Shown here: positions 4,921-6,989 of the stretch, piece after piece
Layout of the letters: each line of letters begins with the position of its first letter
How positions within the stretch are numbered: the first letter of the stretch is position 1
Assembly (NCBI RefSeq): GCF_019393635.1
Contig: NC_057867.1
Span: 4,190,889-4,254,888 of the forward strand
Direction: 5' to 3'
Length of the DNA stretch: 64,000 nucleotides
Source of the DNA: Dromiciops gliroides
Taxonomy: Eukaryota; Chordata; Mammalia; Microbiotheria; Microbiotheriidae
Notes under the pieces: model-generated
The model's input: only the letters and a program-made list of their open reading frames with translations
Database searches by the model: none
Told to the model about the DNA's origin: nothing
Program-made: the position numbers and the translations under genes

Positions 4921-4969
4921 GGTGTCTATGGGTAGATGGAAAAATGGCATCTTTATATTCATTCACTTT

Positions 4970-5023
4970 TTTATTTTGTGGAGCAATGATAATTAAGTGA
5001 CTTGCCCAGGGTCACACAGTTAA
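4970..5023 (-). repeat. SINE tail fragment, antisense
   Basis: 'gataattaagtgacttgccc' followed by 'agggtcacacagtta' is the antisense tRNA-derived SINE or MIR tail without the rest of the element. The three-SINE array next to it inserted at its edge. Confidence 0.55.
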
Positions 5024-5038
5024 TATTCACTTACTTTT

Positions 5039-5182
5039 TTTTTTTTAGTGAGGCAATTGGGGTTAAGTGACTTGCCTAGGGTCACACAGCTAGTAAGTGT
5101 TAAGTGTCTGAGGCCAGATTTGAACTCAGGTCCTCCTGACTCCAGGGTCAGTGCTCTATCCACTGTGCCATCTAGCTGCCCC
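5039..5182 (-). mobile_element. tRNA-derived marsupial SINE (SINE1/WSINE1 type), array copy 1
   Basis: Full length in reverse: T-tract, 'tagtgaggcaattggggtta', 'acttgcctagggtcacacag', 'tgaggccagatttgaactca', and the head GCAGCTAGATGG reversed at the right end. Elements of this class carry a tRNA-like Pol III promoter in the head and an A-tail, and are mobilised by L1 machinery. Confidence 0.93.
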
Positions 5183-5198
5183 TATTCACTTACTTTTT

Positions 5199-5343
5199 TG
5201 TTGTTGTTGTTGGGCAATGGGGGTTAAGTGACTTACCCAGGGTCACACAGCTAGTAAGTGTTAAGTGTCTGAGGCCGGATTTGAACTCAGGTACTCCTGA
5301 ATCCAGGGCCGGTGCTCTATCCACTGCGCCATCTAGCTGCCCC
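5199..5343 (-). mobile_element. tRNA-derived SINE, array copy 2 with (CAA)n tail
   Basis: Differs from its neighbours by a GTTGTTGTTGTTG tail (CAACAACAACAAC in sense) and the variant 'ggcaatgggggttaagtgac'. These private markers recur in the SINE at 6147-6296. No TTTT Pol III stop lies between this copy and copy 1 when read on the minus strand, so read-through transcription is plausible. Confidence 0.93.
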
Positions 5344-5360
5344 TATTCACTTACTTTTTT

Positions 5361-5511
5361 TTTTTTAGTGAGGCAATTGGGGTTAAGCGACTTGCCCAGG
5401 GTCACACAGCTAGTAAGTTGTTTTTTTTTTTAATGTCTGAGGCCAGATTTGAACTCGGGTACTCCTGACTCCAGGGCCGATGCTCTCTTCACTGCGCCAC
5501 CTAGCTGCCCC
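5361..5511 (-). mobile_element. tRNA-derived SINE, array copy 3 with internal T-run
   Basis: Same family. An extra 'gtttttttttttaa' block replaces part of the usual 'agtaagtgttaagtgtctga' clause. Diverged at 'ctctcttcactgcg'. It lies next to the intact TT/AAAA side of the target, so it may be the latest of the three insertions. Confidence 0.9.
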
Positions 5512-5526
5512 TATTCACTTACTTTT

Positions 5527-6133
5527 AACTGAAATCCAGCATCTCCTTCGTTATGGGATTCAGAGCAGGGAGCCATCTGCATACAAGCCCTGAGCACCCA
5601 CAGCAGAGGACCCAGGCCTCTGAGAACTCAAACTGTTTTGGGGCTCAGAGCCATAACTGTATGATCACAGGCCTGAGCTGCTTTGGGTTTTTCTACATCT
5701 ATAAGCCAACCCCAAAGCAAAATGTCCCCAGGGCTGAGCCTGCCTATTTCTAATCTACCTGGCTCCTCAGTGCCACTAACTATTGGCTCCTCATCTTCAG
5801 ACCATGACCACCACCCTCTCTTGTCCCCCGAGCAAGGTGGAGTCATGGTCTGCAGAGTAGCTGAGGTGGGGAGTGTGGCAGGAACTGGGGGCTCATCTGC
5901 CCCATTTCCCCTTGGTTAGATAAGGGTAAAGCTGGCTCCTGCTAAGTGATGCTGGGGAAAAGGGGCAGGGTTTGGGCCAAGTGTATGTTGGAGCTGATTG
6001 TTAAATTTTCATCGTGAGCAGGGACACCTAGGAAATCTGCAAACACTCCAAGCCAAGGCTCAGTTTATTGTTTTGTTGATCATCCAGACTTAAGAAAGTG
6101 ATAGAGAAAATGTTAATAAAACAGATTCAATTT
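5527..6133. other. Unique spacer between the two inverted SINE arrays
   Basis: No repeat or gene signature was recognised. It is the loop between the inverted SINE dimers. Confidence 0.5.
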
Positions 6134-6146
6134 AAAAGTGCCTTGT

Positions 6147-6296
6147 GGGGCAGCTAGGTGGCGCAGTGGATAGAGCACCGGCCCTGGAGTCAGGAGGACC
6201 TGAGTTCAAATCCGGCCTCAGACACTTGACACTTACTAGCTGTGTGACCCTGGGCAAGTCACTTAACCCCCATTGCCCAACAACAACAACAAAAAA
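6147..6296 (+). mobile_element. tRNA-derived SINE, first half of the re-mobilised dimer
   Basis: Sense copy with the same private tail CAACAACAACAACAAAAAA as 5199-5343. It is followed by AAGTAAGTGAATA, which is the target-site duplication of the 5-kb array and not of this locus. About five mismatches to copy 2 over ~163 bp. Confidence 0.93.
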
Positions 6297-6307
6297 GTAA
6301 GTGAATA

Positions 6308-6448
6308 GGGGCAGCTAGATGGCACAGTGGATAGAGCACTGACCCTGGAGTCAGGAGGACCTGAGTTCAAATCTGGCCTCAGACACTTAACACTTACTAG
6401 CTGTGTGACCCTGGGCAAGTCACTCAACCCCAATTGCCTCACTAAAAA
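6308..6448 (+). mobile_element. tRNA-derived SINE, second half of the re-mobilised dimer
   Basis: Reverse-complement match to array copy 1 with about two mismatches, including the shared variants 'agatggcacagtgga' and 'gcactgaccctgg'. The dimer as a whole is bounded by AAAAGTGCCTTGT at 6134-6146 and 6449-6461, a perfect 13-bp duplication starting at a TT/AAAA site. Confidence 0.93.
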
Positions 6449-6462
6449 AAAAGTGCCTTGTA

Positions 6463-6612
6463 GGGGGCAGCTAGGTGGTACAGTGGATAAAGCACTGGCC
6501 CTAGATTCAGGAGGACCTGAGTTCAAATTCCACCTTAGACACTTGACACATACTAGCTGTGTGACCCTTGGGCAAGTCACTTAACCTTCATTGCCCTGCA
6601 AATAAAAAAAAA
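6463..6612 (+). mobile_element. tRNA-derived SINE inserted directly behind the dimer
   Basis: A third sense copy starting 'gggggcagctaggtggtaca' with a diverged body ('caaattccaccttagacact') and an A-tail at about 6600-6612. 'actgccttgttaa' downstream may be a mutated third copy of the local duplication. Confidence 0.9.
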
Positions 6613-6689
6613 ATGTTTTTAACTGCCTTGTTAATACAGGTGGGGTTTTTGTGTGTGTGGGGAGTGTTTGTTAAACATTTATCAGTCTT

Positions 6690-6880: not shown

Positions 6881-6989
6881 CTGACTTCTCTCATGTGTGC
6901 TGACTTCTCTCCTGGCTGCTGACTTCTCCCGCCTGCTGACTTCTCTCCTGGCTGCTGACTTCTCCCGCCTGCTGACTTCTCCCGCTGTG
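6881..6989. repeat. Minisatellite of alternating 19- and 17-nt monomers
   Basis: Six monomers each begin CTGACTTCTC, at 6881, 6900, 6919, 6936, 6955 and 6972. Two types alternate, one ending TCCTGGCTG and one ending CCGCCTG, giving a 36-nt higher-order unit. The open frame across it on the minus strand is a by-product of the repeat. Confidence 0.9.

Follow-up and report, generated by a model that had tools for sequence, protein, structure and literature searches.

A SINE dimer bearing the target-site scar of a nearby inverted SINE array was probably made by local gene conversion

Local DNA repair copying (gene conversion) from an inverted SINE array at 5 kb probably made the SINE dimer found at 6.1 kb in the window, the stretch of 64,000 nucleotides analysed here, and it explains the dimer better than a clean jump through RNA. 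The dimer, at 6147-6452, matched the reverse complement of 5038-5343 over 306 nt without gaps and with 7 differences, in keeping with the roughly seven counted in the preliminary description; the gap between the two inverted arms is 803 nt. The linker between the two SINEs of the dimer equals each of four identical copies of the 5-kb target duplication, confirming the earlier claim that this linker is the array's own target duplication. Scored against flanking sequences, the 6.1-kb linker reached 0 and 5 with its own flanks, 15 and 17 with those at 5 kb, and at best 12 with those of 38 other loci. Since the AAAAGTAAGTGAATA duplication flanks the 5-kb array on both sides, copying ran from 5 kb to 6.1 kb, and because the dimer carries the 5-kb target-site scar, the 5-kb array was its template. 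Coordinates are collected in Table 1.

The preliminary description had proposed a genome search for the junction. This search, run with the 37-nt junction and up to 3 mismatches over 3,303,199,800 bases, returned two places, both in the window, namely the 5-kb and 6.1-kb sites. The 21-nt sequence AAGTAAGTGAATAGGGGCAGC, spanning the linker and the SINE start, occurred exactly at 4 places in the genome, all in the window, and at 255 places with up to 2 mismatches. As claimed, tail and linker both match the array, but the CAA tail is not private to the pair, since 12 other collected copies have a CAA-repeat tail; the unique feature is tail and linker combined, not the CAA tail alone. A composite SINE family is not supported, the junction (up to 3 mismatches) being present at two places only.

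Table 1. Features of the 5-kb array and of the 6.1-kb site (positions in the window)
Feature	Position	Strand	Remark
Imperfect target duplication AAGTGAATGAATA	4956-4968	-	Beyond the truncated fourth unit; by direct reading, 2 of 13 bases unlike the array duplication
Fourth array unit, 5'-truncated SINE end	about 4967-5023	-	
Target duplication AAAAGTAAGTGAATA, 3' side of copy 1	5024-5038	-	
Array copy 1, SINE, CTCACTA-A tail	5039-5182	-	0 differences to 6308-6412 over SINE positions 1-105
Putative donor tract (widest reading)	5078-5234	-	157 nt identical to 6256-6412
Target duplication AAAAGTAAGTGAATA between copies 2 and 1	5183-5197	-	The copied linker
Array copy 2, SINE, CAA-repeat tail	5198-5343	-	
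Target duplication AAAAGTAAGTGAATA between copies 3 and 2	5344-5358	-	
Array copy 3, SINE	5359-5511	-	Outermost on 5' side; internal A-rich insertion
Target duplication AAAAGTAAGTGAATA, 5' (spacer) side of array	5512-5526	-	TT/AAAA site
Target duplication AAAAGTGCCTTGT, 5' side of dimer	6134-6146	+	TT/AAAA site
Dimer's left SINE	6147-6292	+	First 82-109 nt of another subfamily haplotype (G12 G43 G51 G82); tail that of copy 2
Putative transferred tract (widest reading)	6256-6412	+	Identical to array; covers tail, linker and most of right SINE
Foreign linker AAAAGTAAGTGAATA	6293-6307	+	The 5-kb target scar
Dimer's right SINE	6308-6448	+	Rare base A35 in common with array copy 1
Target duplication AAAAGTGCCTTGT, 3' side of dimer	6449-6461	+	
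Older third SINE	6464-6620	+	Same 6.1-kb target
AACTGCCTTGT, third (decayed) copy of 6.1-kb target duplication	6621-6631	+	

On the minus strand, 5526-4956 forms a head-to-tail SINE array of copies 3, 2 and 1 followed by a 5'-truncated fourth unit. AAAAGTAAGTGAATA is present four times in identical form, at the 5' edge and then behind copies 3, 2 and 1, so that linker and flanking target duplication coincide as in a same-site tandem SINE array. The array would have been built by repeated L1-type SINE insertion into one target. Each insertion would restore TT/AAAA in the 5' duplication, where the next SINE would enter, turning that duplication into a linker. As the 5' duplication keeps TT/AAAA, L1-type insertion predicts that the newest SINE would be the 5'-most, and the fourth unit is probably the oldest insertion. 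Tandem duplication is an unlikely origin for the array as a whole, given that copy 2 has a tail and a subfamily haplotype unlike those of the two neighbouring copies, 1 and 3.

The 6.1-kb site (6134-6631, plus strand) has a comparable layout, AAAAGTGCCTTGT preceding and following the dimer and AACTGCCTTGT closing the block behind the third SINE. A perfect 13-bp duplication belonging to the dimer itself, at a TT/AAAA site, had been claimed and was confirmed: the two copies of AAAAGTGCCTTGT are identical and do not recur within the window. Such a duplication round the whole dimer is what a unit inserted by L1-type machinery would show; a converted resident SINE would look alike. Linker and flanking duplication correspond between the dimer and the third SINE and differ inside the dimer. 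Since the 3' flank of the third SINE again bears AACTGCCTTGT, the 6.1-kb site is itself a re-used target.

The present SINE has a tRNA-like head, a short CORE-like end, an A-type tail and target duplications. We take it to be probably of WSINE1 type, a name given by description and not by a match to the consensus sequence. WSINE1 and WSINE1b belong to an L1-propagated CORE-SINE of Australian marsupials (PMC3403934), and the available portion of that paper describes similar traits for WSINE1, namely a tRNA-related head, a short CORE end, a poly(A) tail and target duplications. The word 'tandem' was not found in the texts of two open-licence papers that name WSINE1.

The seven differences between the arms, at block positions 12, 43, 51, 82, 109, 267 and 279, are unevenly placed, with 5 in the first 109 nt, 0 in the next 157 and 2 in the last 40. 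The 157 identical nucleotides between 109 and 267 run from the end of the left SINE through its tail and the linker into the right SINE, most of which they include. For seven random sites, an interior gap this large has P = 0.036 and any such gap P = 0.049, so the gap test alone is weak. An identical tract inside more divergent homologous flanks is the pattern expected of gene conversion. The nearby donor also fits, given the 803 nt between the arms and a junction with no third copy in the genome at up to 3 mismatches.

To compare subfamilies, we aligned 163 distinct full-length SINE copies from the window and the fetched loci, 161 of which share more than 80% identity with the query. Part of this material, from which the allele frequencies were taken, had been selected for likeness to the dimer, and the sample is enriched for dimer-like copies. 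A second allele reached at least 10% at 15 of 131 SINE positions. The left-block differences at 12, 43, 51 and 82 all proved to be swaps of two common subfamily alleles (minor allele 12-37%), none in a CpG, and 2 of the four were G/T transversions. Because these four differences swap common subfamily alleles, the left block does not resemble an aged copy of copy 2. In a mutation simulation favouring transitions 4-fold and CpG 8-fold, at least 4 subfamily swaps among 5 differences arose with a probability of about 0.017 when no transversion condition was set. When at least 2 transversions were also demanded, the probability was 1.7e-5 starting from the 6.1-kb state, and 0 of 300,000 runs succeeded from the copy-2 state. 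In an L1-type unit, divergence should affect ordinary mutable sites and be distributed over the full length; here, 5 of the 7 differences lie in the first 109 nt and 4 at subfamily sites.

Distances to other copies separated the two halves of the dimer. Over SINE positions 1-110, 24 of 159 other copies were within 5 differences of the 6.1-kb left SINE, from which copy 2 differed at exactly 5; over positions 1-105, 13 of 161 other copies (self and copy 2 excluded) were within 4 differences, the number by which copy 2 differed. The right SINE was identical to copy 1 over positions 1-105, and the next nearest copy differed from it at 3 positions. The rare base A35 was present in 4 of 159 copies, the dimer's right SINE and array copy 1 among them. 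Judged from sequence, copy 1 is the template for the right SINE, and the dimer's core is related to the array while its left end has no specific kinship to copy 2.

All four SINEs look young, with 0-2 rare non-CpG alleles each, and the dimer's left SINE is one of the 9 of 161 copies with none. Age therefore does not exclude retroposition. At 0.0045 per Myr, a rate given for devil WSINE1 in the available part of PMC3403934, the 3 differences in 306 nt outside subfamily sites correspond to about 1.1 Myr, and all 7 to 2.5 Myr.

The observations are the identity of the linker, its uniqueness when combined with the tail, the duplications at both sites, the mosaic make-up of the left block and the identical core; local conversion would join them as follows. 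The 6.1-kb site would have been built in the same way as the array, first by the older SINE at 6464-6620 and then by a single SINE in front of it with the haplotype G12-G43-G51-G82. A break would later have occurred in this front SINE, at about SINE position 83-106, and the inverted 5-kb array would have served as repair template. Repair would have entered copy 2, copied on through its end, its CAA tail and the linker, and left in copy 1 after copying the start of that SINE; out-of-register rejoining would have added one 161-nt SINE-plus-scar unit. T109 of copy 2, a rare base, weighs against this course unless it arose in copy 2 afterwards or the left boundary lies beyond 109. Addition of one whole unit predicts that the two ends of the foreign tract lie near the same point of the SINE, and both can indeed be placed at about position 83-106. 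What we infer here is the single SINE resident at 6.1 kb, its break, and a template of DNA and not of RNA.

The best-surviving alternative is retrotransposition of the unit with an extra step: reverse transcriptase would have switched at the 5' side to another SINE RNA, or copy 2 or the dimer's left end would have been converted later. Such a course would account at once for the linker, for the perfect duplication and for the mosaic character of the left block, at the price of two steps and with the 0.8-kb landing still unexplained. As to conversion of copy 2, its five-site haplotype recurs in an unrelated insertion (L064), and the combination of T43 and T51 occurs in no other full-length copy within 10 kb in the window; copy 2 therefore does not look locally converted. 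We regard this alternative as unlikely. Insertion of the two-SINE array's read-through RNA less than 1 kb from that very array, by reverse transcription that switched templates, seems to us rather improbable.

Clean retrotransposition of the unit is a distinctly improbable account. It supposes that Pol III read through copies 2 and 1, that the L1 machinery reverse-transcribed the RNA, which was inserted 0.8 kb away, and that all 7 differences are later mutations. The perfect 13-bp duplication at TT/AAAA speaks for it, as do the exact copying of linker and tail and the existence of foreign-linker arrays with exact outer duplications of 11-15 bp (L012, L015, L021, L026). So does the absence of TTTT: the preliminary description had found no such stop between the two SINEs, and the whole 306-nt block in fact lacks one; counted from the start of copy 2, the first TTTT is 399 nt away, at 4944. 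Against it stand the position of the four left-block differences on subfamily sites and the 13 other copies as near to the left SINE as copy 2 is. On present knowledge, the landing site of a retroposon is independent of the position of its source, and landing within 1 kb of it would be of the order of 1e-6 per event by our estimate for a 3.3-Gb genome. Of the proposal of a single read-through RNA of copies 2 and 1, the source, the direction and the lack of TTTT thus stand, whereas the clean mechanism does not fit the left block and makes the 0.8-kb landing very unlikely.

Two further routes involve DNA only. In one, a template switch during replication, by fold-back or fork switching between the inverted arms, would take the place of break repair and leave a like footprint that is local, inverted, one unit longer and ended in homology; sequence cannot separate it from gene conversion, and we consider this variant of the local DNA-copying class highly improbable as the specific route. 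An inverted segmental duplication or NAHR inversion, to which the inverted orientation and closeness would point, has a negligible probability, because similarity ends with the SINE block and does not extend into the flanks, which speaks against the former, and the duplications match on both sides of both sites, which speaks against crossing over.

The preferred reading, local conversion, gains from the fact that same-site stacking is common among the other arrays examined. Starting from the best 40 of 1374 first-look candidates, a top slice and not a census, we obtained 49 dimer matches; of these, 45 lay outside the window and, once merged, gave 38 loci, whose 46 linkers were tested against their own outer flanks with a simple suffix matcher. 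Matches to the own flanks were found for 33 of 46 linkers at a score of at least 6 and for 25 of 46 at a score of at least 12; in a cross-locus control of 1702 comparisons the corresponding values were 11.1% and 2.0%. The linkers of L035 and L045 match their own flanks by eye, in addition to the matcher's 33. Most head-to-tail pairs in this top slice look like renewed insertion into one target.

Not all linkers followed this rule. In L012, L015, L021 and L026 the linkers had no match although the outer duplication was exact over 11-15 bp; L014 combined one own with one foreign linker. The foreign linkers of these five arrays, two of them in L026, make up 6 of the 13 unmatched; the other seven comprise those of L035 and L045, that of L037, with a weak outer duplication, and those of L022, L039, L042 and L046, where the matcher found no outer duplication. 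No template for the foreign linkers of L012, L014, L015, L021 and L026 was present within the 1.5-3.3 kb of locus sequence. Genome searches with up to 2 mismatches gave 144 matches for L026 and 129 for L012. Among the matches listed, the exact L026 linker and SINE start occurred only in L026 itself; 10 of 12 one-mismatch places were fetched as loci and held no near-identical array. Among those listed for L012, the one exact match elsewhere (L091) was a single SINE with its own imperfect duplication and no array. This weighs against the local-conversion reading, since another process may also make such dimers; the arrays may reflect movement of whole units by way of RNA, jumps between RNA templates, or conversion from a donor that has since disappeared.

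Individual loci showed further arrangements. In L012 (732-757), the foreign linker ends in TTCCTTTTG, whose TTTT may derive from the Pol III stop at the end of one SINE RNA and would then hint at a template jump from that RNA to another. The three units of L017 are joined by two identical linkers with the same CAA tail in front of each; here a unit may have been duplicated in addition to same-site insertion. Tandem units in L018 (600-889) and L019 (601-891) were 0% and 0.8% divergent, perhaps by recent unit duplication or conversion inside the array. L022 (440-735) contains head-to-head SINEs that lie about 30 bp apart and differ by only 1.5% over 131 positions; they may have undergone inverted conversion recently. 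At about position 1500 of L057, L059, L061, L066, L075, L077 and L078, SINEs of the dimer family occupy the target .../AAGTTAGTGAA in copies of another dispersed repeat; they appear to have been inserted by separate events. AAGTTAGTGAAGAGGGGCAGC occurred at least 18 times among the matches listed for AAGTAAGTGAATAGGGGCAGC.

Conversion between inverted neighbours did not prove pervasive: 42 nearby inverted pairs among the collected copies were hardly more alike than pairs from other loci (mean divergence 0.103 versus 0.109). A general excess similarity of nearby inverted SINEs is therefore weak at best. Three of the 42 fell below the 1st percentile of other-locus pairs, two of these coming from the dimer-array finding itself. 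According to the available parts of two papers that cite earlier work (PMC8230782, PMC6598467), gene conversion between Alus is distance-dependent and largely confined to a range of about 10 kb. Non-allelic Alu conversion, as those parts present it, likewise involves short-range copying between nearby SINEs and yields mosaic sequence; unlike it, the 6.1-kb tract spans two SINEs and a scar, and a single SINE would have become a dimer. Tandem Alu insertions (El-Sawy and Deininger 2005, as cited in the available parts of PMC3415434 and PMC12840619) also place SINEs in tandem as here; compared through these citing papers, the present case differs in that the linker was also copied into a neighbouring array.

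Seven large contigs (764, 702, 671, 497, 303, 281 and 85 Mb) make up nearly all of the 3303 Mb, which fits a marsupial karyotype of 2n = 14; the smallest of them carries the window close to one of its ends. The 85-Mb contig is possibly the X chromosome; the window has a GC content of 51%. A GC-rich minisatellite with units of 17, 19 and 36 bp (CTGACTTCTC...) occupies 6881-6985.

Target-site linkers in SINE arrays act as bar codes for the array from which a dimer came, and they can help to tell RNA-mediated from DNA-mediated copying, which single SINEs rarely allow. If conversion makes two SINEs from one without retrotransposition, dimers and target duplications are less clean phylogenetic markers than assumed. 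If instead the reading by reverse transcription and template switch were true, SINE insertion could favour the neighbourhood of its own transcription site, and same-site arrays could move as composite SINEs.
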